DNA of 64,000 nt from Telopea speciosissima (Eukaryota > Streptophyta > Magnoliopsida > Proteales > Proteaceae). Of the stretch, positions 11,899-64,000 are shown piece by piece. Positions within the stretch are counted from its first letter, which is position 1, and each line of letters starts with the position of its first letter. The notes beneath the pieces were generated by a model. The model had not been told where the DNA came from and did no database searches. It saw nothing but the letters and a program-made list of their open reading frames with translations. The stretch spans positions 7,203,568 to 7,267,567 of the forward strand of contig NC_057925.1 of the NCBI RefSeq assembly GCF_018873765.1, in the 5' to 3' direction. The position numbers and the translations under genes are program-made.

Positions 11899-11913
11899 GT
11901 TCAGGAGTAGTGT

Positions 11914-14558: not shown

Positions 14559-14570
14559 TGGTATCAGAGC
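14559..14570 (+). promoter_or_regulatory. Primer binding site (initiator tRNA-Met type)
   Basis: TGGTATCAGAGC directly abuts the 5' LTR. This is the usual Copia primer binding site, complementary to the 3' end of initiator tRNA-Met. Confidence 0.9.
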
Positions 14571-17895: not shown

Positions 17896-18119
17896 GTTCA
17901 ATCAACTGTTGCTCCAGTACCCATCCAATTGCCGAACCCGGATCCAGAACCTGCCTCTCCACCTGGTAATGATCCTGACTTACCTATTGCTCTTCGCAAA
18001 GGTGTCAGAACTTGCACTCTGCATCCCATATCTCATGTTTTGCACTCAGCATCCCATATCTCATGTTGTTTCTTATGATTCCCTTTCCCCATCCTTTCGT
18101 GCCTTTGTTTCCTCTCTTT

Positions 18120-19356
18120 CTTCTGTTCGTATTCCTAACAATTGGCAGGAAGCTTTATCAGACGGAAAGTGGAAGGCAGCTATGCTAGAAGAAATGGACG
18201 CCTTGAAGAAAAATAACACATGGGAGCTTGTGGTTCTTCCACCTAGGAAGAAAAACGTTGGATGTAAATGGGTGTTTGTGGTGAAACAGAAGGTTGGTTT
18301 GGCTGGTTCCACAAGGCCATGATTTCTGTGGGCTATAAGCAGAGTAATGCTGATCACACACTCTTTATAAAGAGGGTTGGTGAAAAACTCACTGTTCTTA
18401 TAGTCTACGTTGATGATATAGTGGTTACTGGCAATGATGGTGATGAGATCAGACGGTTGAAGACCTTCCTTGGACAAGAATTTGAGATTAAAGATCTGGG
18501 GAAACTACGATACTTTCTTGGGATTGAAGTAGCTAGATCTTCTAAAGGCATTTTTCTCTCCCAAAGGAAGTATGTCCTAGACTTATTGGCTGAGACCGGG
18601 TTGCTAGGCTGTCATCCTTCAGATACTCCTATGGACCCTACTGTTCGACTCAAGGAGAAAGAGGGTGAGCCTGTTGATAAAGGCCGGTACCAAAGACTTG
18701 TAGGGAAGTTGATTTATCTTTCACACACGCGTCCTGACATTGCTGTCGCCGTGAGTACTGTGAGCCAGTTTATGCATGATCCCTACTCTTCTCATACGGA
18801 GGCTGTTCTTCGTATCTTGCCCTATTTGAAGTCAGCTTCTGGAAAAGGAATTCTTTTGTCTACTCATGGTCATCTACGGATAGAAGCATACACTGATGCT
18901 GATTGGGCTGCTTCTGCAGATCGGAAGTTTATTTCTGGGTATTGCTCCTTTGTAGGTGGAAATCTTGTCACATGGCGTAGCAAGAAGCAAAATGTGGTTG
19001 CTCGTTCTAGTGCCGAAGCTGAGTTTCGAGCTATGGCACAAGGTATTTGTGAGTTACTATGGCTTAAAGGTTTGCTACAAGATCTTGGTGTTCCTATTCG
19101 TCTTCTTATGATGCTGTACTGCGACAACAAGGCTGCCATCAGCATAGCACACAACCCAGTACAACATGATTGTACCAAGCATGTTGAGGTGGATAGGCAT
19201 TTCATCAAAGAGAAGTTAGAAGTTGGGCTGATTTGTATTCCCTTTGTGACATCTGCGGATCAACTTGCTGATATCTTCACCAAGGGATTGTTTGGAAAAT
19301 TGTTTCATCCCAATCTAATCAAGTTGGGCATGATCGACATCTTTGCTCCAACTTGA
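18120..19356 (+). pseudogene. Copia reverse transcriptase and RNase H with internal RT deletion
   Basis: The RT start reads NNWQEALSDGKW and GCKWVFVVKQK up to about 18290. The next residues, in another frame, correspond to a point well downstream in the domain (GYKQSNADHTLFIKR), then LIVYVDDIVVTG with the catalytic DD. A central block of RT is thus missing at about 18290. RNase H follows: YTDADWAASADRKFISGYC, SAEAEFRAMAQG, and ADIFTKGL near the end at 19356. Confidence 0.88.
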
Positions 19357-19363
19357 GGGGGAG
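19352..19363 (+). promoter_or_regulatory. Polypurine tract
   Basis: CTTGAGGGGGAG lies immediately before the 3' LTR. In Copia elements this primes plus-strand synthesis. Confidence 0.85.
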
Positions 19364-19698
19364 TGTTGAAATAGGCTACTTACACGATTGGGGTAAGCAG
19401 TTCTAGTTTGATTAGGATTAGTCCTACTAGTCCTAGCTGATTAGGATTAGTCCTAGTCATGTTAGGAGTAGTACTAGTCAGATTAGATTCTTTTCTTTTC
19501 TATTATTTTTATTGTTTTACCCTCAGCCAAGTCCTATTGTGGCATTCCTAGTTGTATTAGGAATTCCTAGTAGGACTAGGACTGAGGTGTTATTATTTCT
19601 ATTTGTACTTTGATCAGATTTACTTCAAGTTATTATAAATAAAGGAGCTTGGGTGATCGATTCTAATCACTCAAGCATTCATATCAAAGCTGTTTACA
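19364..19698 (+). repeat. 3' LTR of the Copia element
   Basis: Same length (335 bp) and termini as the 5' LTR, followed by the ATTCC target duplication. Confidence 0.92.
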
Positions 19699-41500: not shown

Positions 41501-44500
41501 ATGCATGTACAAGATACACTCCGTAAAAATGAGAATTTCTTTTACATGGATCCAGGGATCTTAGATGGTATGCCTATATTATTTTTTTCCTAACCAACAT
41601 AGCCATTGTTCTAACATGTTGCAGTACCTTGAAAACAGCACTATGCCCTTCTGGTTGGAAGATTGGACCAAGTAAGAATAAGTGTTTTGAATTTGTAGCA
41701 AGCTCCCGATCTTGGGACAAATCAGAGTCTCAATGTGGGTATAACCATGGGCACTTGGCAGCATTGACATCGACCGAAGAACTATACTTCGCAAGAAAGC
41801 TATGCCCTGAAACTGTCAATGGCTGCTGGGTTGGAGGAAGAGGCTTCAGTTCTACATCTGGTTTTGGTTGGAAGTGGTCGGACAATATGTCACTTTGGAA
41901 TGCGTCAATCTTCCCTGAGGCACCATTTCGTTCCAATTGCTTGAATTCATCATGTCAGAACATTACCCCAATTGATTCCTGTACTTTGGTGACCAATGGC
42001 CACGTGCCCCTTGTGATCGAGAAATGCAACATATCTCATGATTTCATATGCATGCTTGATGTAGGTGAGCCAATACATATCCTTACTATCTTCTCCATCC
42101 TGTTTCCACTTCCTGTCCTTTCCCCTTCCCTTTTTTTTTTTAATTTATTGAAATGAGTGTAGTGTTTATACATTTTATTTTTTTGGCTCTCCATATTGTT
42201 ATCTGTCTGATTGTTACTTAATGCACTTTTCTCATCCCTAACTAAAGCTTCTATGTTTCACCAGACACAAAATGTCACCACAAGCTCTGCCATGTGGAAT
42301 ATTTTATCATCCTTGCAACTGTTAGTGGGTTGATACTCTGCACGACATTGGTTGTCGTGATTTGGCTCCTCGCATGTAGGCGGAGCAAGAGACGTAGAAG
42401 GTCACGCAAAGGATCTAATCCTTCAACATCTGCATTAGTTCCACCATCATGGAGAGTCTTCACAATTGAGGAACTAAGGTCACTTACAAAGAATTTTAGT
42501 GAAGGAAATCGTCTTCTTGGGGATGCCAAGACAGGTGGCACATATAGTGGGCTTCTAACTGATGGTTCAAGAGTAGCAGTCAAGAGATTGAAGAGGTCTA
42601 GTTTTCAGAGAAAGAAGGAATTTTATTCTGAGATTGGAAGAGTTGCAAGGCTTCGTCATCCTAATCTTGTCGCAGTGAAAGGATGCTGCTATAATCATGG
42701 TGACCGCTATATTGTTTATGAGTTTGTTGTGAATGGACCCCTGGATAGATGGTTACACCACATACCGAGAGGAGGGAGGAGCTTGGATTGGTCTATGAGG
42801 ATGAAAATTGCTACAACACTTGCACAAGGAATTGCGTAAGTCTACTTTACACCTATATTTGGTAAAAATGAAGTGTGCATCCAAACTGCTGCTGTTCGTT
42901 TAATTTGCTATCTACATATTTGTAGTTTTACTATGAGTTATGAATTTTTATATGCATAGCTTGCAAGGATCATTCATTATCTCCATTCTGTTCCAGTTAA
43001 CCATCAGGAAGTACATCTATATATCCAATACTGAATGTCAACAAGGTAAGTGGTATTATTCCCTTGGTGTGTACTAAAACAACCAGCAATGGTTAGGAAC
43101 CCTCAATGCAGTATGCAATGGGATAAGGCCCAAGTTCATAGATTCCCTAGTAATCCTCGACATAGCCAGCTCACCAGCGCATGAATTGGATGAATACATC
43201 CTCCTTACAAAAAATAACACTCTTTATTACATAAGGTCTAGTTTCCGCATGAGATGCGTATATCTCCATAAACCTCCTGGCCTTGCTTAATACGTGAACT
43301 GTCTCCGTGTAATCTCTAAACTCACCTCTCACCATGCCGGGACCTGGATTTCCAATGTTGCTGCCATCAGCATTGAGATTTAGCATAACCTCCTGGCATT
43401 GCTTTGAGTCTAGTAGCCAATGAATCATAGATTTAGAATCACCTCCTATGATCAATTATACCTACCCCTGTTGAAGGGAAATATCAATACCCATGGTGGC
43501 TGCTTTCCACTCTTCTGTGGTTGATTCACAAATACTGACAGGAGCAGAAAACACTAGCAGAACTGTTCCATTGTAATCTAAACACACCTCTCACCCTGCT
43601 GGGACCTGGATTGCCAATGTTGCTGCCATCGATACTGAGCTTTAACATATTTTTCCAGGGAGGGTGAGGGTGGGGGTGGGGATTCCCAGTTTCACAAGAG
43701 GTCATCAATTGATGCCCCGAAAACCTTTAGAGTAACAGCCCACTTAGCTGTTCTCACTGTGATGAGCGCAACAACCTGCTGGACTGATCTCTGCCGTGGT
43801 CTTAAAGCCCTTTTATTTCTCTCTTCCCAAATGGTTCAAATGGAGGCTAGGAACACAAAGCGCCACTAGATTTTCTCTAATTTGCCACACTGAGCTGATT
43901 ATCAAAAACTCCATTACATCTTAACCCCCCTCCCCCCTTTTTTTTTTTTCGGTGGGGGGGGGTGTTTCCAGTTTTTTTACCAAAGAGAGACAAAGCAAGC
44001 CCAAATAGCTCTAGCAAAACTACATTGGACAGTGAGATGACTCACTATTCCCCATCAACATGCCAGTTCGTGCTTATTATTCACTCTGGCACTTCTCCCT
44101 TTTATGGCGTATCAAACACACATATAGCTTCTAATGTGGGAGGCAACCTGCATCAGATTTTTTTAAACTGAAAAGTGAAAACTCAGAAGGAGTTGAAGAA
44201 GAAAAACTGAGGAGCTGAAATTGCTTTACTGTTGTAAAATTCGTATACAGTGCTACACTGCTACTGGCCCTGTTTTGGGTCCTCTTGTAGACCTGAAATA
44301 TGTAAATTCCTATTCTAACTACATCTGTAACCTAATACACCAAAATGAACTCTGAAAACATTCGAAGAAACAGATCAAATAATCTTGAATAAACAAGGAT
44401 AAGAACAGAAATGAAACAATACAGTATTCTTGTTTCCAGAAATGATGGAACTCCTAGTCCTGCTAGGAGTTGCTGTAAACTCTTCAAACTTGATTCCTAT

Positions 44501-45960
44501 CTGAATTAGGAGAGCAGTCAGAAACAACACTAACTTATTTGGTTTGAGGACAGGGAGCCCTGTTCCCTTGTAGTGGGAGTCCTGTTCAGTCTGATCAATT
44601 TGTAAATTCTTTCTCACAAGAATGGAAACCCATTCCATAAAAGAAATCCAGCATCCCTAAAGTTGCAGTAGTATCTAAATCTGTTCTGAGGTCTGACTAC
44701 ACTGTTCTGAGGAATTACGGCCTTTCGTACTTCAGTTGACTCCAAGAAAGATTAGTCTCCCAATATTATTCCTGCGTTTTGACAAGAAATAGAATGACAT
44801 ACCCCGAAAAGTAAGGTAAAAAAAGCTTATATTTTTCTAGACATTGGCAGAAAAAATGCATTGAAAATCCAGGACTACCAAGAGGGTGCATGGATCACCA
44901 AGATGAGGCAAATTTAACATGGTCAATTCAGACCATTTCCTAGATATCCAAATGGTTCAAATTGCTACATCACGCTTCCATATGGAAAAATCTTGTGTTT
45001 ATTATGTGGGTGTGGAACTGATGAGTGTTACTTTTTATATTAATATCTACTCTAGAAATGATTATGTAGTTGTAAGATTTAGATGCAGTTATGAAGTATA
45101 ATACCATGTTCAGTTATTCCAAGAGAAAAAAATATACAGTTTGGAGATTGTTTCCTTGTTTAGTTTATCGGTGATTGACTTTTAGCTGTAGGATTCCGTT
45201 TACAATTAATAAAATAAAATAAGTTTACCTATTGTTTTCATTTACTTTAAGAAGACTGTCACTATCGTAGTTGTTGGTTTCAATTGTTATGATTAAACAG
45301 AGACCTTTCTTGCTCAGTTCTCCATGAGTTTTTGACTCATCTTTTGATTCCTATATATATTTGCATTACAGATTTTTGCATGACAAGGTGAAGCCACATG
45401 TTGTGCACCGGGATATCCGTGCCAGCAATGTATTGCTGGATGAAGAGTTTGGAGCACATATAATGGGGGTTGGTCTCTCAAAGTTTGTTCCCTGGGAAGT
45501 GATGCATGAAAGGACAGTGATGGCTGGTACATGTGGATACCTAGCACCAGAATTTGTTTACAGAAATGAGCTCACAACGAAGAGTGATGTTTATAGCTTT
45601 GGAGTGCTTCTGCTTGAACTCATTAGTGGTCGTAGGCCCGCCCAGGCAGTTGATTCTGTCAATTGGCAGAGTATATTTGAGTGGGCCACCCCTCTTGTGC
45701 AGGCCCACCGATACCCAGAGCTTCTGGACCCTCTCATAACTGACATTCCTGAAGTTGGGGTTGTACAAAAGGTGGTGGACCTTGTATATGCTTGCACTCA
45801 GCATGTGCCATCAGTGCGGCCAAGGATGTCACATGTTGTCCATCAGTTGCAACAATTAGGATTAAAAACTGCCTCTGAAAAGTCTAGGATTGGAACAAGC
45901 ACAAGCTCTAGCACTACCTCTCGGATGCATGTTTTTGAGATGGAGGGAAACAATGCGTAA
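38545..45960 (+). CDS. C-type lectin receptor-like kinase (At1g52310-like), four exons, about 553 aa
   Basis: Membrane receptor-like protein with one extracellular C-type lectin domain and a cytoplasmic kinase-like domain. Exons: 38545-38620, 41639-42064, 42265-42835 and 45372-45960. Exon 1 encodes a signal peptide (HLLAFTFCCLTVLVRAQN). Exon 2 is the lectin domain (LCPSGWKIGPSKNKCFEF, GCWVGGRGF, FGWKWSDNMS, CNISHDFICML). Exon 3 has the membrane helix (about residues 174-196), a basic stop-transfer stretch, and the kinase N-lobe with the lysine in VAVKRLK. Exon 4 has HVVHRDIRASNVLLDEE and CGYLAPEFVYRNELTTKSDV. The DFG motif reads GVG (HIMGVGLSKF) and the glycine loop is degenerate (LLGDAKTGGTYSG), so catalysis is doubtful. 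The same change is, to my knowledge, present in the Arabidopsis protein. The exon 2 acceptor is inferred from frame; a stronger-looking AG at 41624 would need another exon 1 donor. Confidence 0.92.
38621..41638 (+). other. Intron 1 of the lectin kinase gene, with local duplication and LTR-like debris
   Basis: Donor GTGGGT, acceptor AACAG. 38720-38910 and 38935-39105 are diverged tandem copies (share AATCGCCAAT, TTGCATTCTTCAGTCCCTCC). 40440-41300 looks like LTR or leader debris of the kind seen at 26160-27180. No internal gene is seen. The minus-strand ORFs at 38518-39122 come from the duplicated repeat. Confidence 0.5.
43171..43708 (-). pseudogene. Two tandem LINE RNase H fragments in intron 3 of the lectin kinase gene
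   Basis: On the minus strand, LNLNADGSNIGNPGPGMVRG (about 43322-43383) and LKLSIDGSNIGNPGPSRVRG (about 43588-43648) are both the start of an L1-type RNase H domain (consensus DGS-GNPG). They lie in direct tandem about 266 bp apart, so a fragment was duplicated or two pieces inserted. Both are broken. They lie in the intron 42836-45371, which otherwise lacks coding signal. Confidence 0.65.
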
Positions 45961-49591: not shown

Positions 49592-49754
49592 GGGTAGGGG
49601 CCGCGCGAACGCGTACCCCCGCTGCCACAAATTATGACGTACACTCTCCCACTTGGGGAGATGTTAGGCAGGCACCCTTCCCAAGTGCAATGGAAGTCAC
49701 CAACCTAGGCAATGGGCCTTCTTGATCACCCATAAACCCCGTCCAGGTAAGTAT
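49592..49754 (-). ncRNA. U1: U1 spliceosomal snRNA, copy a
   Basis: The minus strand reads ATACTTACCTGGACGGGG from 49754, the U1 5' end that pairs with 5' splice sites. It continues through U1 loops (CCATTGCACTTGGGAAGGGT, CTCCCCAAGTGGGAGAG), the Sm site ATAATTTGTGG and a terminal GC hairpin (GTACGCGTTCGCGCGGCCCC). The total of about 163 nt fits plant U1. The 3' end is placed by the hairpin. Downstream AGTTCAA (near 49579) fits the plant snRNA 3' box. Five differences from copy b were seen, all outside the 5' end and Sm site. Confidence 0.95.
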
Positions 49755-49776
49755 GTTTTAATCTCATTGCTTTCCC

Positions 49777-49830
49777 TATTTATACAATTGTTTTCCTTTC
49801 TCTCTTCTACTACCTGAACCGATGTGGGAC
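49777..49830 (-). promoter_or_regulatory. Promoter of U1 copy a: USE and TATA
   Basis: The minus strand carries GTCCCACATCG (49820-49830), a perfect plant upstream sequence element, and TATAAATA (49777-49784), about 24-31 bp before the start. The ~35-bp spacing between them is the Pol II type of plant snRNA promoter. Confidence 0.9.
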
Positions 49831-51407
49831 TAAATATGGGATCTATCAATGGTTTTGGACCTTTGGGGACTGTTTGGTTTGGGCAATCCCTCAAAGGTAG
49901 GTGTGTGTGTTAATTAAGGTGTTAAGTATTGGGATCAGATCAGATAAATCTCATCTCTGACGAGGTTTCTTTTCGTTTTATAATGGCTCTACTTCCACCA
50001 AATTAATTGCTCACACTCTTCAATGAAGAAAGCACCAATTAATAGAAACTTCAAACTCCATATAAAGTGTTTTTACTTGTCATCACCCTTCTTCAATCTA
50101 TAAATTTGTACAGTTTTAAGTAATAGGCAGAAGTTTATATACACGGCCGAGCACACACACGGTCTACATTAATTATTGTTCGATGTGCATTTATATCCAT
50201 TCAAATTGACCATAAAACCCCCACACCTTCCTATTGAATGAATGATGCATGGAATCTACCGTGCATGAACTCCTTTCCCTAATAGCTCCTTCAGCCTCTG
50301 GCTACAAAATTTTTAAAAGGATATCTAGTATCCCCCAATGAGAGTTGAACTGATGACCCCTTAATTGTGAACTGTTCTTCCTTGCAAACTAAGCTATCCC
50401 CTTGATATTAATATCCGAATTTGAAAATATTCACCTTCTTTCCCTCTTATCTATGGACTCCTATTCTCCAATTTTCTTCTTAAGTTTCAAATTTGAGACT
50501 AAAATTGAGTGCATTCCCTTAGTCCTCTCTCTTCTCCCGGAGCATTTTTTGTTTCAAATTTCAAACTCAAGAGAATAGATAGAGAATGTGATGGCTATAA
50601 ATAAAGCTAGACACCCCACATCATTTACTCAGGTCCAAGCCAGTGTCTAAGAATTTGAACTCTAACCTGCTCTACGGGGTTAAAAGCCCAACCCAGGGTG
50701 GGCTTTGGGCTCATCAGGCCAAACTTGCACTCCCAAGTACAATGTGAGAATAGTTAAAACTTAAGTTTTGAAACTAGGCTCTTCTCCTACCCTGGGATGA
50801 TAACAAAGATCACCCAATCGCAAGGTTTTAAGAATCGGTGAATCGGCAGATATGGATCGGAATCGACCATGATTGATTCTAATTTCAACTGATCAACAAA
50901 GCTGATTCACACCCAAAAACCCTAGAAATTCTCTGTTTTTGAATTTGAGATCAATTCTAGGGTTCTTAGCACCGATTCGGGCCAATTCCGATCCCAATAT
51001 GACCGATTCCAAATCTGATTCTGTGTTTTAAAGAACAAATTAAAATGGGTAATGTAATATTATCAAAGAAAAACAAATGGAAAATCTCGATCGAGCCTGG
51101 AATCAATGCTTTTGATGTTTATCCCCCAGGGTTGTTGACAAGAGAGAGCTTCTCTTGGATCCTTCAACTCGACCCAAGTGAGAAACCATTGGATTATTGA
51201 AAACTCTGGATGGATTGAATCTTTGTGGCTCATTCATTCATTAGTGGGACCCATGGATGCTTCTTACACGCCAAGTTTTAAGTATAGAAAACAACCATTT
51301 GATAAGTATCAGTGGGGCCAGGGTCATTAACAAATTGTTTATTACATGTTTGTGTAACTCTAAACCGCCAGATATGGATCTAGAAAATTTTTTTGAAATT
51401 AGTTTTG
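49831..51407. other. Spacer between U1a and U2a; duplicated block
   Basis: No gene. Parts match 60540-62700 in order and orientation (ATCACCCAATCG at 50811 and 61559; GAATCAATGCTTTTGATG at 51102 and 61722). This shows that the whole U1-U2 unit was duplicated. Confidence 0.6.
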
Positions 51408-51605
51408 GTAGGGGTGCGCCAGGCTCGTGCAGTAGTGCAACACATGAGCGACGCTTGAAGACCCCAGTAGCAAGCTACTGTAGTGGGCCCATCCCCAAAG
51501 AAAAATTAATTTAATATCATGTGGATCGATGATCCACGTATCAGATATTAAACTGATAAGAACAGATACTACACTTGATCTTAGCCAAAAGGCCGAGAAA
51601 GGTAT
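51408..51605 (-). ncRNA. U2: U2 spliceosomal snRNA, copy a
   Basis: The minus strand from 51605 reads ATACCTTTCTCGGCCTTTTG, then GATCAAGTGTAGTATCTGTT, which includes the branch-point recognition sequence GTAGTA, and TCAGTTTAATATCTGATA. Next come a perfect hairpin GTGGATC-ATC-GATCCAC, a U-rich Sm-site region and hairpin CAGTAG-CTTG-CTACTG. The length of about 198 nt fits plant U2. The 3' end is estimated. Confidence 0.95.
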
Positions 51606-51631
51606 GCTTTCTATATTATCTTAATTTCCAT

Positions 51632-51682
51632 TTTATATCCAATCTCTAGTTATCCTTGTTTCCTCTCTAGCCGATGTGGGAT
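51632..51682 (-). promoter_or_regulatory. Promoter of U2 copy a: USE and TATA
   Basis: The minus strand carries ATCCCACATCG (51672-51682), a perfect RTCCCACATCG, and GATATAAAA (about 51632-51640), with about 32 bp between them, which fits Pol II snRNA spacing. Confidence 0.9.
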
Positions 51683-52130
51683 TATTGATCATTTTTCCCC
51701 CCTTGCTTTGACCTCCTTACATGAGCATATGAGAACTATTGCAAGACATGCATTCACAAATTATGGACCAAGTTTCCCTCCATCCAACGTGAACGGGTCT
51801 CATTCACCGTAGGACGGGAGAGGACAAGAACGGGTATCGAGAGGGCATTTTGGAACATACTAAAACCCTTAGGATGGTGGGTGAACCATCCACTATGATT
51901 GGAGGGAGACTTAGTCCACAAGTACTCATAAGCGCTTATACCTGTAAGCCTACCTCCGTTCGCTAACCCATAAGATGGTTTGTTTTCTACGTTTTTTAAC
52001 ATCCCTCGCTTAAGTCTAAATTCAGGCAATACTTTCACATAGAATGATAGGAGTTGTGGAGTTTTTAATGGGTTGATGAGGCTATTTACTTGTCTTCTCA
52101 AGAATATGGGTCGGGTGAGTCTCTGGTGCG
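51683..52130. other. Upstream flank of U2a, part of the duplicated unit
   Basis: It shares with 62983-63200 the words CCTCCTTACATGAG, ATATGAGAACTATTGCAAGA and GTAAGCCTACCTC in the same order. No gene. Confidence 0.6.
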
Positions 52131-52134
52131 AATA

Positions 52135-52586
52135 ATCTAATCATGCGTTGATTTGAGATCTGGTTTGATTTTATTTATTTGTTTTATTTTTTTGCATTAA
52201 ACCATTGTATATCATTTTGTTACAGCCGGTTGAAACACTTGTTAATTGCGTTGACAAGATTGTGACAATTAGTATGGATCTTTGATCCAAAACCTAGATC
52301 CTCCATGTCTGCCCTACCTTTCTTCATTTTCAATATTTAAACTTTTCATGATGTTGGATTTATAATGTTCATATATCTTGGAAATTTTAATCATGTATTG
52401 ATTAGAGAGATCTGGTTCGATTTTGTTTATTTGTTTTATTTTTTTCTTTTAATACAAATTTTTTTCTGCTGGTTTAAACCACTTGTGAATTGCATTGACA
52501 ATGTTGTGGCAATCAGTGTGGGTCTTTGATCCAAAACTCAGATCCTCTATGCTTACCCTTCCTTTCCTCGTTTTAAATATTTTACC

Positions 52587-52629
<43 letters not shown>

Positions 52630-52690
52630 ATTCAATCGTGCAATAATTGGAGATTTGATTCGGTTTTTTTATTCGTTTTATACTCTTAAG
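52135..52690. repeat. Tandem repeat of about 250 bp, 2.3 copies
   Basis: Copies start near 52137, 52386 and 52631. Shared words include ATCTGGTT(T/C)GATTTT, TTATTTGTTTTATTTTTTT and TCTTTGATCCAAAAC. The third copy is truncated where the telomere-like array begins. An (AT)n run lies at about 52598-52620. Confidence 0.7.
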
Positions 52691-52694
52691 TTTT

Positions 52695-53232
52695 GGGCTT
52701 AGGGTTTACGGTTTAGGATTTAGGGTTTAGAGATTAGGGTATAGTGTTTAGTGTTTAGTGCTTAGGGTTTAGGGTATAGGGTTTAGGGGTTAGGGTTTAA
52801 AATTTAGGGTATAGGGTATAGGGTTTAGAGTTTAGGGTTTAGGGTTTAGAGTATAGGGTTTAGGATTTAGGGTTCAAGGGATAAGGTTTAGGGTTTAGGT
52901 TTTAGGGCTCAGGATTTAGGGTCTAGGATTTTATGTTTAGGGTTTAGGGTATAGGGTATAGGGTTTAAGATTTAGGGTTTAGGGTTCAGGATTTAGGGTT
53001 TAGGGTGTAGGGTGTAGGATTTAGGGTATAGGGTAGTTTAGGGTTTAGGGTTTAGGGTTTAGGGTATAGAGTTTAGGGTTTAGGATTTAGGGTTTGGGCT
53101 TTAGGGTTTTGGGTTTAAGGTACAAAGTTTAAGGTTTAGGGTATAGCGTGTAAGGTTTAGAGTATAGGGTATAGTGTTTATGGTTTTGGGTGTAGGGTTT
53201 GGGGTTTAGGGTTCAGGGTATAGGGTTTAGTA
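52695..53232. repeat. Degenerate telomere-like (TTTAGGG)n array, part 1
   Basis: Head-to-tail 7-mers close to TTTAGGG, the common plant telomere unit, with many variants (TATAGGG, TTTAGAG, TTTAGGA). All run in one orientation. The degeneration shows an old interstitial array, not a chromosome end. Confidence 0.85.
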
Positions 53233-53847
53233 TTTTTTGGGCCCTAAGCTTACTTAGAGGTAAATTCATGAGTTCTATTCGATTATTCTTTCCTATTCCT
53301 AGTCTTAAAAACCATCTGAACCTTGAATTGTCTAGTGACTCGTCAATAAGATAAATTTCTTGAAAAAATTATTGAAGGAACAGATGATCCCCTCTCTCGC
53401 CACTTGTGGCTTCCTAGACTTATCCCTACCGTTCCATCAACTAATCTTATTCTTGAATCTTGTTAGTGATATTGAGACAAAATATCTCTATGAATTTTTC
53501 AACTTTCTGTGTATACTAAATTACTATAGTATCATATAAATAATGATATATTTATATGATAGTATCATAAATAAAATAATAAATCTTAACCTTAACTTAC
53601 ATAATACGATTCTGTTAGTAGCTGGGAGCAAGAGCGAAAGCGAATTGGGGGTTTTCAAAAAAGGAAAGACGAAGCTTCATTTCAAAGCAAGCGAAGAAAA
53701 CTACAAGGGTGGTCCTAGAGCAGCTCGACCGCAGGGTGGTCGTAGATCAGGGCTTTCTTCGTATTTTTCTTTTTTGCCAGGTTTCAGTCGATTTGTTGTG
53801 GATTGGACGATAGAAAAAACACCAAGCAGCGAGTAGGGCTTAGTCAA
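53233..53847. other. Non-telomeric insertion within the telomere-like array
   Basis: About 615 bp of ordinary sequence with a 97-codon open frame (53543-53836, plus) separates two halves of the array. Words such as GAGCGAAAGCGAATTGGGGG are reminiscent of plant mitochondrial DNA, but I do not recognise a gene. Confidence 0.35.
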
Positions 53848-54715
53848 GGGTTTAGGCTTTAGGTTTTAGGATTTAGGGTTTACAATTTAAGGTTTAGGGT
53901 TAAGGGTTAAGGGTTAAGGGTTTAGGGCATAGGGTTTTGGGTTTCGAGAATAGGGTATAGGGTTTAGGGTTTAGGGTATAAGATTTAGGGTTTAAGGTTT
54001 ACAGTTTAGGGTATATGGTTTAGGGTTTAGAGTTTAGGGTTTAGGGTTTAGGGTTTAGGATTTTAGGGTTTAGGATTTAGGGTTTAGGGTATAGGGGTTT
54101 AGGGTTTAGGGTTTAGGGTTTAGAAATAGGGTTTATGGTTTAGGGTATAGGGGTTTAGGGTTTAGGGTTTAGAAATAGGGTTTATGGTTTAGGGTATAGG
54201 GGTTTAGGGTTTAGGGTTTTGGATTTAGGGTTTAGGTTTAAGGTTTTTGGTTTAGGATTTAGAGTTTAGGGTTTAGGGTATAAGGTTTATGGGTTTAGAG
54301 TTTAGGGTTTAGAGTTTAGGATTTAGAGTTTAGGGTTTAGGGTTTGGAGTTTAGGGTATAGGATTGGGTAAAGCGTTTAGGGTTTCGGATTCAGGGTTTA
54401 GGGTTTAGAGTTTAGGATTTAGAGTATAGGGTTTAGGGTTTAAGGTTTAGCTTTTAGGGTTTATGGTTTAGGATGTAGGGTTTATGGTTTGTGTATAGGG
54501 TTTAAGGTTTAGGGTTGGGGAGTTAGGGTTTAGGGTTTAGGGTTTAGGGTTTAGGGTATAGGGTTAGGTGTTTAGGGTTTAAGTTATAGGGTTTAGTGTT
54601 GAGTGTTTTGTGTTTAGTGTTTAGGGTTTTTGTTTTGTGTTTAGTGTTTAGGGTTTTTGTTTTGGGTTTTGGTTTTAGGGTTTAGGGTAGGTTTTATTGT
54701 TTAGGGTTTACTACA
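53848..54715. repeat. Degenerate telomere-like (TTTAGGG)n array, part 2
   Basis: Continues the same orientation and variants as part 1. It includes a higher-order tandem duplication of about 60 bp (TAGAAATAGGGTTTATGG at 54120 and 54170). Towards 54600 it degrades into TTTAGTG/TTTTGTG variants. Confidence 0.85.
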
Positions 54716-55334
54716 TGTTGAGAATAAAAATCATCTTCAAATTCAGCCAACAAAACAAGTGTGCTTTTCACCACTCGGTAAAGAATCCCTTGTTTCAGAA
54801 ATTAGATCTATAAGTCAGAAACAAAAGATGTGTTGATGAGATTGATTTGTAATTAGATTTCGAAGTATGAAAGAGAAACAGAACCACATGCACACACCAG
54901 CTATATTCATGGTCCTATCCTACAAAACCTGTTTTGTGTAGAAACCAACTGCGTATCCAACTTGATATAATAAAAAGCATTATATTTTAATTTTGGGGGA
55001 GGAATCTACACACCACTGGCATATGTCGGAATCTCCAACGCCAACGAAATAGGGGGAGAAGATGCTGCACAGTTTGTATACGAGGCGTCCAACATGGTCA
55101 GGGAGGAGAGATTGCAAAAGAAATGTATATGTAGGCTTTTCCGTTTGTATAAATATCAATCATTTTCTTAATGAGGACGGTACCTCTAATATTTTATTAA
55201 TAGAAGTAAAAATGTTTACAAGTACTTTGATGTGAAAAAAATAAAATATCAAAGAATGTAAAATCAAAGGAAATACAAGAATAGAAAGAAACAGAACTCC
55301 ACAGTCCACGCTCGATCCAACCTGATCAGGTCCC
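54716..55334. other. No gene seen; downstream flank of the NAC gene
   Basis: AT-rich sequence without coding signal. It would include the 3' UTR of the minus-strand NAC gene. Confidence 0.4.
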
Positions 55335-56089
55335 CTAACCAACAATTGAAGAAGATGATTTTCTACGTTTCTTTATCACGCAAATCATCAATTCTGGAGA
55401 CTGTAATTGCAGAATAAAGCATGTGGTTAATACTATGGACCATTTCCATGGATAAATTAGAGACAATTTTATTATGTAAGAAAGAAAACCATATATTAAG
55501 TTTCAATTAAAACAACTGATGATGGAATTAAAACTAATTAATTAATTACCTTGGTAAGTCTATACTCGTGCATAATCCAATCAGTCTTCTTCCCCTTATT
55601 GGATGTACGGTTATCATTAGTATAAATTAGATACGTCAACTGTTTAAAATAACCGATGATCACCACCAGCCTTTGACTTTGATGAAGGTGGTTATCTCTA
55701 ACCAGTCTATCTCCCGTACTCGCTCTCCAAAAACCATTACCAGCTCTACGCTCAGCTCTGGAACTGTTCTCCGATAACTTTCTCCAAGGAACAAAGAAGT
55801 AGAGAGCTTTTTTGGCACCATTGTTAATCATGTCAGCCCCTATATATATATAATTGCATCACCATTAGTAGTGAATCTAACAAAAACTTAATAGAAAGAC
55901 AAAAAAAGAAGAAGAAGAATTGAAGAAATAAAATAGGTAAAGTAAGTAAGTACCTGGAAGTAACCATGGCTCCTTGGTGTAAACATCAAAATCCTTCACT
56001 GCATTTGAAGGGAGGTTTCTGCCACTCAATCTGTTTCCGAGATAATCGACCAATAGAACTTTGTCGGTCGGAGTGAATCGAAACCCCAT
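55335..56089 (-). CDS. Short, divergent NAC-domain transcription factor, three exons, about 163 aa
   Basis: NAC proteins are plant DNA-binding transcription factors. Exons on the minus strand: 56089-55954, 55839-55550 and 55400-55335, with GT-AG borders and consistent phases. Exon 1 gives subdomain A and B (MGFRFTPTDKVLLVDYLG, YTKEPWLLPG; the usual DEEL is DKVL). Exon 2 gives C and D (ALYFFVPWRKL, GNGFWRASTGDRLV, KKTDWIMHEYRLTK). Exon 3 gives E (ELMICVIKKRRK) and a stop 22 codons in. The product is the NAC domain with almost no C-terminal activation region, whereas family members are usually 200-600 aa. It could be a repressor-like mini-NAC or a decaying gene. The intron positions match the usual NAC pattern. 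Confidence 0.82.
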
Positions 56090-56367
56090 GGCAATCCCTT
56101 TTCTTCTTTTGATCGTTCATCAGATATGTAATTAACAGCATTAACCGACTCTGATGAGGGGAGCATTAATGCGCTGCTTATCTCTTCTTTTTCTTCTTCA
56201 GTAAAGCCCAAAAGTTCATCCACACTGAAGAACATTTGATCCATATTGTTAAATTCGTCTGGTATCAACCATTTCTCGGGGGCCACCTCAAGGCTAATGG
56301 CAGCCGAAGGGAGCATTTGACTGCTCATCATCAGAGAAGACTGAAATCCGTCGTTCAGTGGTTCCAT
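56026..56367 (-). CDS. Upstream ORF overlapping the NAC start, out of frame
   Basis: ATG at 56367 (MEPLNDGFQSSLMMSSQML ...) opens 113 codons that pass through the NAC start in another frame and stop at 56026. It is acidic (DELLGFTEEEKEEISSAL). I do not recognise it. It may be an upstream ORF in the NAC leader, an exon joined by splicing I cannot see, or a one-base frameshift that cut an N-terminal extension from the NAC domain. Confidence 0.3.
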   Translation of the reverse strand: MEPLNDGFQSSLMMSSQMLPSAAISLEVAPEKWLIPDEFNNMDQMFFSVDELLGFTEEEKEEISSALMLPSSESVNAVNYISDERSKEEKGLPWGFDSLRPTKFYWSIISETD

Positions 56368-56724
56368 CTCTTCTTCTTCTTCTACTGCTGCTTTTAACAA
56401 AAAAATATAAAAAAGAGGGGAAAATGGTGAACACCACAAACTCTCGATCGATCGATCGATCACCTGTCACTGTTTAGAAAGTGGAAGAAAACAAAGGAGC
56501 GAATTAAGGTTGAATGCAGTAGCGGCCAGGGAGTGAATTAAGTGGGAGTGAACCCTAAGATTGAATGTTAATAAATGTTATATACATATAGTTGATCAGT
56601 TTAGCAACTATCTAGGAATTAGACAACAACTAGGAATCCTAGTAGAACTCCATTTATTTGTGTATTCGGACAACAAAATTAAATTAAGCGGTACAATTGT
56701 GTCGGAGTAGTAGGTTAGTGATTC

Positions 56725-57580
56725 CAAAGATTTAGGAAATGACTTGGGCACATGGGTCCCATCCTGATCCTGGGATAAAACATTACAGAAAATTATCCTC
56801 TCCAATTCCTTAAAGTGTAGCAGTACAACAGTGCTATGTGGAGATCGATGTTGACACCTGGCAGCTGTTGCATCCAATGATTCGAGCTCATTGATATGGA
56901 AGGTTGGATGTGGCAACTGCCAGGTGTCAACATCTCCACCTAACACTGCCACACTTTAGGAATTGGCCGGAGAGGATTTCGATATATATATATATATATA
57001 TATATAACCTTTATATTTTTCAAGTATCCTAGTTATTTGCCGAGCCCACTGTCTAATTTCCACATAAGATAGCCTCATACGTGGAGGACCACAAGAATAG
57101 TGCCGGGAATCACAAGCTTTGTTTATTATTATGGAAAAAAAAAATTACACTCACATTAGAGTAATTCTTATATGACTCTAAATTCTATTTTTTTTTTTTT
57201 TTTCTCTCTTTATTCCATATCAGATGATACCCGTGACCGTTCTCGATTTGTACATGCATATATGCCGTGAGAGAAAAAAAAGTCAAAAATATTGAGCCAT
57301 CCGATTGGACATATTGTTAATTTTATTTTGTACCATTCAAATGAATATGATGAAAATGCTCAACTCAAGATACAAACTATACTACCCAATAATTAATGCT
57401 CTGTCATTCACATTATTTATGTTCTCTCTTGTATAATTAGTTTTGCATGATAAGTGCCACCGTTATGCCTATCTATTTAAAGAAAAGTTATTTGTAGTTT
57501 TTTGAGTATCAAATCCTTTTTCAGATTGTAAAGAGCTAGGGTGATTGAATTTTTTATTTTTTTTTTAAATGTTGAGATTT
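56725..57580. repeat. Local duplication, left copy
   Basis: It shares with 57950-59280, in order, TTCCAAAGATTTAG, CATAAGATAGCCTCATACG, ATCACAAGCTTTGTTTATTA, CCATCCGATTGGAC and TTTTTGAGTATCAAATCC. It contains the fold-back element and an (AT)n run (56984-57005). Confidence 0.75.
56796..56976. repeat. Fold-back element upstream of the NAC gene
   Basis: Arms 56796-56877 and 56904-56976 are inverted copies (TCCTCTCCAATTCC ... GGAATTGGCCGGAGAGGA; GTTGACACCTGGCAG ... CTGCCAGGTGTCAAC) around a ~26-bp loop. It is MITE-like. Confidence 0.8.
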
Positions 57581-57949
57581 TTTTGGGGGACCATTGCTAA
57601 TGGGACGTTGGAGGAAATCAATTTTTTTTTCTGTTGTCGCACACAATGAGCAACTGACCCTGTTAAGATGCTAAGGTGAGAGATGTTATATGTTCTCATT
57701 TTCCTATATATGCCCATGAGAAAAGATACGCTTAAAATGAACATCGATCAAAATCAGCCCTTATTTTGGGTGAGGGAGAGGTGGGGGTGGGAGAAGCTTC
57801 ATGGGAGGGGGAGGGGGAGGGGGAGGGGGGAGGGGAGGTACAATGTGCGCCAACCGATCGGGCACCTCTCGTGTGGGAGGAAAATATTTGGCTGCAACCC
57901 GGATTGCAGTCATGTTCTTGCTGCCCAAAGGTAGGCACCAACTTGAAAT
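57581..57949. other. No gene; G-rich simple repeat
   Basis: A (GGGGGA)n tract at about 57797-57838 gives misleading open frames on both strands. No real gene is supported. Confidence 0.5.
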
Positions 57950-59280
57950 AATTCCAAAGATTTAGAAACTTGGGCATGTGGATCCATCCTGGGATAAGAT
58001 TAGACACTTTAATTACGGGGTTAGGATTTCAAATCCCAAATCGATCCCCTAATAACTGTTTATATGATATTTAATAATATATAAGCTTTATATTTTTAAG
58101 TGTCCTAGTTATTGCCAAGGCCACTGTCTAGGTTCCACATAAGATAGCCTCATACGTGGAGGACTACAAGAATAGTGCCGTGAATCACAAGCTTTGTTTA
58201 TTATTATTGCAAGAAAAAAAAATACCATCAAATTAGAGTAATTCTTATATGATTCTAAATTCTATTTTCCTTTTTTTTTTTTTTTTTTTCTTTTTCTTTT
58301 TTCCATATCAGATGACATACCCGTGCCTAGATTGTTCTCAATTTGTACATGCATATATGGCTCAAGAGAAAGAAAAAGTCGAAAAGACATGACAGTGGCT
58401 TTAGTGCAAATCTAATCTGCATACAAACACAAGCGATTAAGATTACTGCTGGAGAATTTGGATTGTGAAAGTTAGATGTCAAATTTGGGAATTAGCATTT
58501 CTAATAAGAGAAGAGTAATGGAGAATTGAACATATTTATGTACTTACAAGGGTTAAGGTTAGGACAGGTCACATAAAATCAGTTTGTCTATTTTTTAGGG
58601 AGGGGGGTTGACCATAAATTTTTAGGGTTTTCGGAATTGGTAAGTGTATTCCTATTTAGCTCTTTAAAACCTTGTGATAGGATGATGGTTTAAGTAAGTC
58701 TCAATTTGGTTTGGATTATGAAGGGGCATCGGCCAAGTCTGAATTGATAGGAATGGGGATAAAAACATGCATTGTGGGTTTCAGAGGAAATTTTTTTTTT
58801 CCCATCCATATCTCCTAAGGCCCAGCTGCCCGTAGCAGCCTGTGCGCCCTGATAGGGCCGCGCACGCAATGATCGCCTTACCCCCACTCAGACAAGTCTG
58901 TGCCGCACAACCTACTACGGGCAGCTGGGCCATAGACGATCCGCATTGTTATATATATCATCACATAAGTTATAGCTATTTATTGTGCCATCCGATTGGA
59001 CCTATTGTTAATTTTATTTTGTACCATTCAAATGAATATGATGAAAATGCTGAACTTATGATACAAACTATATGTTAGAGTACAATGCTACCCATTAATG
59101 CTCCGTCATTCACATTATTTATGTTCTCTCTTGTCTAATTAATTTTGCATGAGTCCCACCGTTATGCTGATCTATTTAAAGAAAAGTTATTTATAGATTT
59201 TTGAGTATCAAATCCGTTTTCAAATTGTAAAGAGTTAGGGTGATTGAATGTTTTTAAAAAAAATTTAAATGTTGAGATTT
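57950..59280. repeat. Local duplication, right copy, split by a ~0.6 kb insertion
   Basis: It matches 56725-57580, but the match stops near 58380 (GAAAAAGTCGAAAA) and resumes near 58985 (GTGCCATCCGATTGGAC). The insertion carries a fold-back (58819-58835 against 58915-58931, GGCCCAGCTGCCCGTAG) related to the one at 36752-36858. Confidence 0.7.
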
Positions 59281-60297
59281 TTTTTTTCAAATGTCCCCAT
59301 GTTTGGTACATTTTGTTGTAACCAAAGTGGTGAACTTAAAAAGTAACGTTTGTATTGCTCTTTGTTTTATTCTTAAAAGTTTGTTAAGTTAAGGAAGGGG
59401 GAAATTCAAAATAATTTGAAAACGATTTGTCATTATTATTTTCAAGAGTTGTTATTGTCATGCACGTTTTTTGAGAATACATGTAAACAAAAATTATTTT
59501 ACCCTCATTCAAAGAAGAATTAGTATATTAAAACAAAGGTAAAAAAACACTAACAGGTTGCATTGTTTCTTAGCCCAGAGACAAGACCGCATGAAACTAC
59601 TGTTAAGTCCCAGTGAAGTAAAATATCTCATTTAGAAAAATCTTCAATATACACTCTCATTGTCTCCCGCACTAATGCAGATGCCATATGACCAAACATC
59701 GATCTCTTAACCCAAAAACAAAATAAGGTTACAATTTTTTTTATCGACTTTAACAACAAATTTTCTCATCATTAAAAAAAGTATATTCGGTTAAACAAAA
59801 GTGGATGGACAATTTGGTATGGATATCCATTTTTGAATAATTGAATAATTTCATATCTATGCCAAAAGAATCCCTTCAATTCAAATGGGCCAAGCGGCCA
59901 ACCAGTGCTATCAAATTCCGAGCACTTTGATTGAAATAGCATTCAAAATGTGCATTGATGGTTGCATTTGCTTCACGCCCCCTGAAAATGCCCATTTGTC
60001 CAAATGCCCCCTTATAACATTTCTAATTGCAAATTCTCTCTTATTTTCAAAAAATGCTCATTTGTTCAAAATGTCCCCCACAACATTTCTAATTGCAAAT
60101 TCTCTCCCATTTTCAAAACATTATAGCAGTTTTGTCCCTACCGTTTAGTTGGGACAATCAATTAGGATTGAAACTGAAAAAATATTCTCCAAATTAGTTA
60201 GGGTTTGAACCTATCTAGAAAGCTAACAACTGCATACTCACCAAACATCCAATATTACTTAAGCTTGAAGTCACATTAATATATTTAAGTTAGAGTT
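59281..60297. other. No gene; TIR-like relic of the MULE family
   Basis: About 59985-60215 resembles the arms of the MULE-like element at 32127-34144 (AAAATGCCCATTTGTCCAAATG; TTAGTTAGGGTTTGAACC). Only one arm is seen, itself with an internal repeat of the ATGCCCATTTG block. Confidence 0.5.
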
Positions 60298-60460
60298 GGG
60301 TAGGGGCCGCGCGAACGCGTACCCCCACTGCCACAAATTATGACATACACTCTCCCACTTGGGGAGATGTTAGGCGGGCACCCCTCCCAAGTGCAATGGA
60401 GGTCACCAACCTAGGCAATGGGCCTTCTTGATCACCCATAAACCCCGTCCAGGTAAGTAT
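60298..60460 (-). ncRNA. U1: U1 spliceosomal snRNA, copy b
   Basis: Same length as copy a. From 60460 the minus strand reads ATACTTACCTGGACGGGG, with an identical Sm site ATAATTTGTGG and terminal hairpin. The five differences by eye include two that tend to strengthen the stem around CCTCCATTGCACTTGGGAGG. It is a plausible functional gene. Confidence 0.94.
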
Positions 60461-60483
60461 TTTTCACCCTCATTGCTTTCCCT

Positions 60484-60535
60484 TATATATACATTAGTCT
60501 GCTTTCTCTTCTCTACTAGCTGACCGGTGTGGGAC
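60484..60535 (-). promoter_or_regulatory. Promoter of U1 copy b: USE (one mismatch) and TATA
   Basis: GTCCCACACCG (60525-60535) differs from the plant USE by one base. TATATATA (60484-60491) lies 24-31 bp upstream of the start, with a 33-bp gap between them. The mismatch may weaken it relative to copy a. Confidence 0.85.
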
Positions 60536-62076
60536 TAAAAACCCACCTCCTTTCCCATATTATCTTATTTTTGTATGTGTATCTGCAAGTGATTTTGGTC
60601 CTCTAGCTAGCTGCTTAAATGACTTATTTACCCAAAAAAAAAAAAATACATAAATGACTTATTTATTCATTCACGAAGTGAGATATAATGAAAGCCTAGC
60701 TGAAACTTCAATTGTGAAATTGAAATTGCACTTTTGGTCTGTTGAATATTTAAGAAATAATATAGATTAACCACATGGTAAATTACAGATTCAAATCAAT
60801 TTGTATGCCCTCCCACATGTTTTTTGATTGAGCATCTCCACTATTCTAAATTTTATAATACTTTAGGGAAAAACGGCTGTCCAAGAGTGAAGATATTGCG
60901 CCTAGAAACAGATGGCGTGAAATGACCACCTTCCCCCCTCCCCCCAAGAAAGACAAAAATCTCACCCCTATTGATGATTTTTCAGGCATTTTCATTGGCT
61001 TCTGCGACAGAAACTCTTCTCCAATATTTTATTTTGTCACTTGGGCAAACTCCATTTGGATTGAAACTTAAAATGTGAAGAGGGTCTTTAATGAACAAAT
61101 GCTTGCTCAGTTGGTCGATGGTTTGCCAGTAGAATGCATGCTCCCAGGAGGTCACGGGATTGACTCTCCTGCTTCACATTTGTGCCATGAGGCACTCCTC
61201 CCTCCCCCTGCAATATTCATCAGGATGTATTTGATATGCTATCGATCTTAGCCAATACTGATCTAGATTAGACCCATGATCAGCTGCGATCATGATTTAA
61301 AGATTCGATGTCGATTTGTGTTGGCTCAGTATCGGCCCAGACTGGTCTGTGTCGGATCCATATCGGCTTAGATCAGTTCGGATCAGATTGTACTTTTTTG
61401 AAATTTTTTGAACCGGGTCGGCCAAATAACCAATCCAAGAACTGATAGGTAGCCCCTGACAAGAATCGGCCAAGAACAGGTATTGACCTGATCCGATTGA
61501 TTCCATTGATTTGATACCAATTCCTCAGTTCCTTGCTTACCACGGGAAGATAATTCAGATCACCCAATCGTAAATCAAGATTTAAGAAAAAGAACAAAAT
61601 TGATAAAATGTAATTATGAAAGAAAAAAACAAAGAAAAAAGAAATGAAGAATGCTAACACACCAGAACTAGATTGATCGATCCGCCATCTTGATGAGCCC
61701 CTCGATCGATCGAGCCTAGAATCAATGCTTTTGATGTTTATCACTCAGGTGGAATTGGATCCGATCCGATCCAATTCAATGGGGCCAGGGTAGAGTTGCA
61801 GTTAGGGCGGGGTTGGGTTGGGCCAGGCTTTTTTAAGACCCCGGTCCAACCCTAAGTCACCTTAGTTGGGCCCAGGTCCGACCTGACCTGACTCAGGGCC
61901 TGGAAAATTCAACTCTGACCCGCCCTCAGGGTCAAGTTGGGTGACTTTGATTGGCCCCGATCATGGAGTGGGGGAAGGGAGAGATGCATGGACTAGATTG
62001 AGTTGGGCTGGGTTTTGGAGAAAATTATCAATTTTATATAAAATAACACTATAATAAAATATATTATCACTTATTA

Positions 62077-62123
<47 letters not shown>

Positions 62124-62708
62124 AAATATGTGTGATATTTAAAGTTTATAATATATATAGTATATCAATATATATTTTATAGTATAACTTAAAATAGGGT
62201 CGGACTAGGCCAGGCCGGACTCAAACCGAAGCCTCAACCCTAGCCCGACCTGACCATAACTCAGGGCTAGAAATTCTTAACCCTGACCTGCCCTCAGGAT
62301 CAGATATCTCAACTCAGGCCCTGTTCAGGCTCACGGCGTGCCAGGGAACAAAGCATCTATTGGTACCTGCAATTCAATCCAGTGAGCCCAAAATACTCTT
62401 CTTCCAGTATCAAAGCAACTATTTGGATTTCTTTATTGAATGAAACCTTGGTTCTTTGTTATAATGTGAAGGTTTATTAGTAGGCAGAAGGGACCCGCCA
62501 TACATACATGATACATGGATGGAGTGGTTTAATGAATCACAGCCGTTTGATAAGGTACCAATGGGGGCCAGGGAAATTAGAAGCTATTACTATATGTTTT
62601 TCAATCCAGAGTCTAGAATCGTTTTCCCAACCAAACCTTAAGATTAATGGTTACCTGTTCATTTAAGCCGTCAGATTTGGATATTTGCAAAACTTTTAAT
62701 TAGTTTTG
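60536..62708. other. Spacer between U1b and U2b
   Basis: It corresponds to 49831-51407 with about 0.6 kb extra. It includes GATCGG-rich repeats (61270-61510), GGGTTGGGCC-type repeats (61790-62000, 62200-62340) and a long (AT)n (about 62083-62118). No gene. Confidence 0.5.
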
Positions 62709-62905
62709 GTAGGGGTGCGCCAGGCCCGTGTACTAGTGCAACACATGGTCGACGCACGAAGATCCCAGTAGCAAGCTACTATTGTGGACCCTCCCCCAAG
62801 AAAAATTAATTTAATATCATGTGAGTCGATGACCCACGTATCAGATATTAAACTGATAAGAACAGATACTACACTTGATCTTAGCCAAAAGGCCGAGAAA
62901 GGTAT
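62709..62905 (-). ncRNA. U2: U2 spliceosomal snRNA, copy b
   Basis: Identical to copy a over about the first 75 nt, including the branch-point recognition sequence. Differences cluster in the 3' half. The stem-loop with GTGGATC/GATCCAC in copy a is here GTGGGTC/GACTCAC, so pairing is kept with one G-U pair. The length is about 197 nt. Both features suggest selection on RNA structure. Confidence 0.94.
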
Positions 62906-62930
62906 GCTTTGAAACTCGTTTCGATTCCCA

Positions 62931-62982
62931 TTTTATTGAGGGTCACCACCTATCCTTATTCTCTCTTTAACCGATGTGGGAG
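62931..62982 (-). promoter_or_regulatory. Promoter of U2 copy b: USE (first base differs) and weak TATA
   Basis: CTCCCACATCG (62972-62982) matches the USE except at its first base. The TATA position holds only TCAATAAAA (about 62931-62939), so this promoter looks weaker than that of copy a. Confidence 0.75.
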
Positions 62983-63779
62983 TATTGACCATTCTCTTTT
63001 CTAGCTTTAACCTCCTTACATGAGTATATGAGAACTATTGCAAGAGACTCTATTCATAGGTCACTAAGTATTAAGCGTCTATGCCAGTAAGCCTACCTCG
63101 ATGCTCTTCACCCATAAAAGGAGGTGTGAAGTTTTTAATGGGTTAAGGCTGTTGTCTTGTTTTCCTAGAAATAAGTCTAGGTGAGTGAGTTATTGGTGAT
63201 TCTTTAATGGGTTGTTTTGTTTTCGAAACATGCCAGAATGGCTTAAAAGTGCATACATCATTGCATCAACATCGTAGATTTGTCTCCTGTAGAGTTCCTC
63301 GTGATCTTCGATTTGATATATATTTTGACCATATATTAGTTCAGGTCCGAACTAAACCAAGTGGTTCTCTAAGGGTAGCTCTGTACTTTTTAGGTTAGGG
63401 TTTTCTTATATAATGTTGTTATCTCTTTGAGAGATGTGAGATTGAGGGTTTGTATTTTTGCTTTACAGAAGTAGTAGAATCGTTCTATCGGTCGGCTGTG
63501 GATGTAACCTTCTCTTTCTCTTCGATTTTCTTCTGCAAAATCACCATTCTAGGGTTTGTTTTTCTAATCGAGTGCCTGTTGCAAAAAACAAGACAATGGT
63601 TGTAATCATCCAAGTCTGAGGAAAATGGGATCAAAGAGAAAAACGATAAATCTCTTCAGATCATAAATGTTTCGAGCTGAAATATTGCATACAAATTCCG
63701 AATGGCTCCCAAGTCTCCTTCTTCCCTTCCTCTTCAATTTCATCTCCCTCATCTTCATCTTCTTCGGTAAATATAATCC
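62983..63779. other. Upstream flank of U2b; end of the duplication; no gene
   Basis: Similarity to 51683-52130 runs to about 63200. Beyond it there is no coding or RNA signal until 63780. Confidence 0.5.
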
Positions 63780-64000
63780 ATGTCAGATCCCTCAAGACAG
63801 CACTTCCCCCCATTTCCTAATCGGCTCACTACCTCAACCACCCATACTCCAAGCCTTAGCCCATCCCCTCCACATGAGATCATGGAAACCCATACCCAAA
63901 ACCTATCCCCTCCCCTCAAACCTTCTTCTCCCATTCGTTCAGATGGTCTTCTTGGAATTTCTCCAACCTCTGGTTCTTCATTTAAGAAGAAGGGTACAAG
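63780..64000 (+). CDS. Partial ORF running off the right edge, unknown
   Basis: ATG at 63780, with an in-frame TAA just before it (63774), opens 73 codons to the window end. The product is rich in Pro, Ser and Thr (MSDPSRQHFPPFPNRLTTST) and ends in a basic FKKKGT. It could be the start of a LINE ORF or a host gene. The sequence seen does not decide. Confidence 0.35.
   Translation, partial: MSDPSRQHFPPFPNRLTTSTTHTPSLSPSPPHEIMETHTQNLSPPLKPSSPIRSDGLLGISPTSGSSFKKKGT

Follow-up and report, generated by a model that had tools for sequence, protein, structure and literature searches.

Paired U1 and U2 snRNA genes of Telopea speciosissima as probable parts of mixed U1/U2 arrays

The window analyzed here, a stretch of 64,000 nucleotides from Telopea speciosissima (C10:7203568-7267567, contig NC_057925.1), has two pairs of genes for the small nuclear RNAs (snRNAs) U1 and U2, one consisting of U1a and U2a and the other of U1b and U2b. 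The arrangement raises the question of whether one pair is a copy of the other or whether both belong to something larger. The explanation that we favor, with a probability of roughly three in four, is that the genes belong to old mixed arrays of separately transcribed RNA polymerase II (Pol II) genes; the arrays would have spread through duplications of units and of whole segments, and members were lost.

The evidence that carries this explanation is the linkage of the two gene types throughout the genome, which was searched over 823 Mb in 1287 contigs. The listed matches are at least 42 U1, all above the cmscan gathering cut-off (69.5 bits for U1, RF00003, and 46 bits for U2, RF00004), 41 U2 places, 13 U4 and 26 U5, each number being a lower bound. 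The U2 list consists of 40 places from a DNA search, with split pieces joined, and one from a U2-family search; it rests on the DNA search because runs of N in the loci leave many copies without a family-model score. For later counts the split U2 at 7271-7273 kb became one entry and the U2 at C6:63577.4 kb was added, and both lists have 41 places. Nine U2-family matches were left out, two of them above the cut-off (C4:60809785, 63.2 bits, and C6:64775860, 55.7 bits), and neither of these two has a listed U1 within 1 Mb.

Among the listed matches, a U2 is present within 10 kb of 36 of the 42 U1, on the same strand in 35 cases, and a U1 is present within 10 kb of 33 of the 41 U2 (33 of 43 with the two higher-scoring matches that were left out). 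Both gene types occur at 10 of 19 loci (10 of 21 with the same two matches), located on contigs C1, C6, C8 and C10, whereas a random placement of 15 U1 and 14 U2 loci would give about 0.05 such loci; the ten are not independent because several are copies of each other. The distance to the nearest partner is variable, with a median of 1.9 kb. The original prediction had singled out the linkage of U1 and U2 in a plant as unusual; it is real and extends far beyond the window.

The pairing of gene types differs from that of Arabidopsis, for which seven U1-U4 clusters, with genes 180-300 nt apart, and one U2-U5 cluster have been described (PMC545797); the likeness is that Pol II snRNA genes that carry both a USE (upstream sequence element) and a TATA element form small clusters of mixed type. 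Linkage of the Arabidopsis kind was looked for in Telopea. None of the 26 listed U5 is within 50 kb of any listed U1 (42) or U2 (41), and a U4 is within 10 kb of one of the 42 listed U1, about 7.4 kb away and on the opposite strand (13 listed U4, three matches below the cut-off having been left out of the linkage count). The U5 genes have same-strand clusters of their own, with five copies at C11:16.08-16.11 Mb and eight at C1:3.23-3.29 Mb, and all U1 and U2 on the lists are more than 50 kb away from them.

In the window itself, a cmscan search of Rfam finds exactly four full-length snRNA genes above gathering, all on the minus strand and with E-values of 1e-35 to 1e-36:

49595..49754, minus strand: U1a snRNA gene, intact (cmscan RF00003, 144.2 bits)
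51409..51605, minus strand: U2a snRNA gene, intact (cmscan RF00004, 167.9 bits)
60300..60460, minus strand: U1b snRNA gene, intact (cmscan RF00003, 142.6 bits)
62710..62905, minus strand: U2b snRNA gene, intact (cmscan RF00004, 169.6 bits)

Two U1-U2 pairs in the same order on one strand had been predicted, and this is what the family models find; because all four genes are on the minus strand, U2 is upstream of U1 in either pair. The copies are 96.9% (U1a/U1b, with differences at five sites) and 91.9% (U2a/U2b) identical. The 5' ends of the genes are intact, as had been claimed, and both U1a and U1b start with AUACUUACCUG, which is able to pair with 5' splice sites; the U1 Sm region is also intact in the window copies. 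Compensating changes in the U2 stem were likewise correctly foreseen. Among 45 consensus pairs compared between U2a and U2b, two differ in both bases and yet form standard pairs in either copy (A-U to G-C and U-A to C-G), and a third differs in both bases but is nonstandard in U2a; nonstandard pairs number three in U2a and one in U2b.

Each of the four genes was also said to have its own USE and TATA, and both are found at all four, 65-77 bp (USE) and 23-32 bp (TATA-position element) upstream of the gene ends, in weaker form at some:

49820..49830, minus strand: U1a USE, GTCCCACATCG, exact match to RTCCCACATCG
49777..49784, minus strand: U1a TATA element, TATAAATA
51672..51682, minus strand: U2a USE, ATCCCACATCG, exact match to RTCCCACATCG
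51631..51637, minus strand: U2a TATA element, TATAAAA
60525..60535, minus strand: U1b USE, GTCCCACACCG, one mismatch
60484..60491, minus strand: U1b TATA element, TATATATA
62972..62982, minus strand: U2b USE, CTCCCACATCG, one mismatch
62931..62937, minus strand: U2b TATA-position element, AATAAAA, weak, one change from U2a

The 3' box, CAN3-10AGTNNAA, is exact at U1a and has one mismatch at each of U1b, U2a and U2b. Random stretches of the same DNA have an exact box in 1-3% of cases and a one-mismatch box in 13-25%; one-mismatch boxes are therefore common by chance, and the 3'-box evidence is strong for U1a only. The USE, TATA and 3' box are elements of plant Pol II snRNA genes (PMC5079582), and the genes of the window have sequences of all three kinds, in some cases with a single mismatch. 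At the level of the single gene, nothing was found that would distinguish them. They are most likely ordinary Pol II snRNA genes, probably expressed separately, and no sign of a new RNA or of co-transcription was found in their sequences.

The same elements can be followed through the arrays. Among 25 U1 copies the USE is exact in 15, has one mismatch in 7 and is worse in 3, two of which are cut off by the end of the locus; among 22 U2 copies the corresponding numbers are 11, 4 and 7, and two of these seven are split copies whose own USE is outside the stretch that was cut and was seen separately. An exact 3' box is present in 11 of the 25 U1 and 10 of the 22 U2 copies, to be compared with its frequency of 1-3% in random stretches.

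These counts bear on the possibility that U1 and U2, perhaps in the form of retrocopies, inserted repeatedly and independently into regions prone to insertion. A few copies do resemble promoterless chimeras, namely the U2 at C10:38319.6 and 38431.7 kb, which have scraps of U1 before the 5' end and no USE. However, an RNA retrocopy would be without a USE, and 22 of the 25 U1 and 15 of the 22 U2 copies have one with at most one mismatch. The agreement in strand in 35 of the 36 listed cases and the spacers that copies have in common also speak against insertion, and we consider it highly improbable as a general explanation.

Selection might instead keep the genes together, the arrays being a co-regulated hub of snRNA transcription in which the dosage of U1 and U2 is kept in step. 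Linkage at ten loci on four contigs, the shared strand and the retention of promoter elements in most copies would all agree with such a hub. However, neutral copying of a linked ancestor would look alike, and the arrays have decayed members, namely split U2 copies and a U1 at 7269.2 kb whose USE has three mismatches. We think that this explanation is unlikely.

The third alternative was part of the original prediction: a U1-U2 unit of at least 3.5 kb was duplicated once in tandem, so that one of the two pairs is the source of the other. The order and orientation of the pairs are alike, and the offset between them is 10,706 bp for the U1 genes and 11,303 bp for the U2 genes, in agreement with the 10.7 and 11.3 kb given before. 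Direct plus-orientation matches between the pairs are 246 bp at U1 (91.5%), 44 bp (93%), 387 bp at U2 (83.5%) and two blocks of 46 and 73 bp upstream of U2. Together they amount to about 800 bp, of which the spacer proper contributes the 44 bp. Thus, the shared flank and spacer that had been reported reduce to short blocks at the genes and promoters plus this one spacer block, and the rest of the spacers is unmatched, whereas a tandem duplicate would be expected to have continuous spacer homology.

Longer matches are found outside the window. The window has half of an array of four U1 and four U2 genes (array B), and an inverted relative of it (array A) is present on the plus strand at C10:6.96-7.03 Mb, about 230-310 kb away. 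Homology between A and B is inverted and long, for example 89% over 2031 bp in one stretch and 85% over 417 bp in another. The parts of the window that match array A are 51659-53666 (89% over 2031 bp), 54981-56443 (83%), 60646-61202 (83%) and 63594-64000 (85%), and upstream of U2, U2a and array A are about 89% identical over 0.6-2 kb. Three features of the intergenic DNA are needed for what follows:

51659..56443, minus strand: DNA upstream of U2a with matches of about 79-89%, 0.6-2.5 kb long, to array A (C10:6978.8-6985.6 kb, on the other strand)
60646..61202, minus strand: part of the U2b-U1b spacer common within arrays A and B, 83% to C10:7017292-7017844
61810..62346, minus strand: dispersed repeat in the U2b-U1b spacer, copies mostly at 75-86% identity on many contigs

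Partly degenerate TTTAGGG-type repeats are present within the first of these. Such telomere-like degenerate arrays are located at 52690-53235 and 53830-54710, between U2a and U1b, and have relatives upstream of the U2 genes of array A. Elsewhere, at L026:5719, a USE and an upstream region resemble those of U2a, but no U2 gene is seen to follow.

The distribution of the U2b-U1b spacer was followed with a shorter piece as the query, the whole spacer being swamped by the dispersed repeat. Of the 13 U1 genes in arrays A and B, nine besides U1b have parts of 60646..61202 upstream of them, and the distal part of this stretch includes a dispersed repeat; among the 40 candidates scored, the U1b upstream spacer has other matches only in the embedded dispersed repeat. 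Among the same 13 genes, this type of spacer was not reported upstream of U1a or of the U1 at 7018.9 and 7025.0 kb, and these three form one group in the U1 tree (86/87).

The trees include 25 of the 42 listed U1 and 19 of the 41 listed U2 copies; the U2 copies at 7271.0, 6988.8 and 63580.4 kb, which are split or fragmentary, were not used, and the set from which the trees were drawn did not contain the split U2 at 6973.0 kb. U2a groups with the U2 at C10:6985.7 kb (84/87), U2b with that at 7015.3 kb (88/94) and U1a, weakly, with the U1 at 7018.9 kb (84/53), each on a branch below the level that the tree program marks with a star; U1b has no resolved placement in the U1 tree. U2a, U2b and, weakly, U1a are therefore nearer to genes of array A than to each other. 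With the 44-bp spacer match, these groupings and the spacer distribution, in which U1a is without the standard spacer sequence, we reject a simple tandem duplication as improbable, together with the duplicated unit of 3.5 kb or more, despite the 44-bp block at 93%. Instead, the two pairs seem to belong to an older array of many genes that has an inverted relative. Because the U1b-type spacer is missing at U1a and because of the tree groupings, pair b would be a standard unit (U2-spacer-U1) and pair a a probable mosaic, its U2 and U1 coming from different units. A caution follows: local pairs should not be taken for simple tandem duplicates without consideration of the whole gene family.

There are several indications that pairs can move as units. 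Three U2 pseudogenes (6973.0, 6988.5 and 7271-7273 kb) have similar inserts at one site, after U2 nucleotide 61. Two of the inserts measure 138 and 125 bp, and the third copy has a related one followed by further DNA, 1.76 kb altogether; the U1 genes next downstream of the three belong to one five-member U1 clade (98/92). In the array at 38 Mb, two U1-U2 units with about 47 kb between them match each other at 99-100% identity over 747 and 363 bp and at 90% over 409 bp, and the U2 of one of them is without its middle part. The arrays at C6:33.7 Mb and C8:63.1 Mb have intergenic DNA in common, up to 93% over 498 bp.

According to the explanation by old mixed arrays, U1 and U2 would have become linked early, and the linked genes would then have been copied by unit duplication, by segmental duplication (as for A and B, inverted relatives on one contig) and between chromosomes, with later gains, losses and insertions partly reshuffling individual pairs. 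The window would hold two of the four U2-U1 pairs of one of about ten mixed U1/U2 arrays, and each gene, judging from its USE, TATA and 3' box, would be its own Pol II transcription unit making ordinary U1 or U2 snRNA.

Several results weigh against this explanation. Over 18 neighboring U1-U2 pairs, which were chosen by hand, U1 and U2 distances are correlated (Mantel test, r = 0.47, p = 0.0001), but not when the permutation is confined to clusters (p = 0.62; 0.56 if A and B count as one cluster), and for A and B alone r is 0.20 (p = 0.18); therefore, U1 and U2 are not clearly travelling together within arrays. By these comparisons, shuffling of U1 and U2 is substantial within arrays and perhaps occurs between arrays too. 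Among the listed matches, the nearest same-strand U2 is upstream of 19 U1 and downstream of 16, so there is no single unit order in the genome. The U1 tree sets C10:7 Mb, plus one C4 copy, apart from C6/C8 (100/96). The U2 tree is without this split, and in it the U2 copies at C6:63 Mb, together with the C6:54 and 61 Mb copies, are tentatively placed on the side of C10:7 Mb (85/85); this lowered our confidence. The C10:7 Mb and C6/C8 arrays have no spacers in common except for a few short or dispersed pieces, and with this and the U2 tree, the case for a single origin of the linkage comes mainly from co-location.

Linked U1 and U2 genes are known from fish. European hake has linked U1-U2 units, with a U2-to-U1 polymerase chain reaction (PCR) product of 1211 bp and a cluster large enough for fluorescence in situ hybridization (PMC4696792). 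The likeness to Telopea is that U1 and U2 are physically linked and repeated; the fish have the 1211-bp product and the large cluster, whereas the plant has about ten dispersed loci with variable spacing. Our searches of the open-access literature on snRNA gene organization, which leaves most subscription journals outside, turned up no plant U1-U2 arrays, and as far as these sources go, the mixed arrays in a plant are what is new. The linked partners of snRNA genes would vary with the lineage, U1-U4 in Arabidopsis and U1-U2 in fish and Telopea. Since most of the listed U1 and U2 genes share loci, Telopea offers a natural test between an accident of duplication and a balanced supply of snRNAs. 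That mixed arrays are an old and maintained organization in this plant lineage, with about ten co-regulated loci that, unlike the arrangement in Arabidopsis, hold the supply of U1 and U2 in step, is a suggestion that we regard as tentative and rather doubtful.

Some minor observations should be mentioned. At loci L012 (1503-1740) and L010, U2 follows short pieces of U1 and has no USE; these are chimeric and probably dead copies. Two snoR137 H/ACA small nucleolar RNA genes (locus L034, 4895-5044 and 6849-7000) are located past the end of array B, about 16-18 kb from its last U2. The matches to microRNA families in the window (E 0.013-0.014, far below gathering) were taken as chance. LINE-like (long interspersed nuclear element) remnants are present on both strands at 6491-13110, with reverse transcriptase (weak), RNase H-like and zf-RVT domains. 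A probable Copia-type long terminal repeat retrotransposon is located at 14224-19698, where direct repeats of 335 bp (94.9% alike) surround integrase and RVT_2 frames. Finally, C-type lectin and partial protein kinase frames on the plus strand at 41533-45957 probably belong as exons to a single gene for a receptor-like kinase, which might serve as an anchor for synteny.

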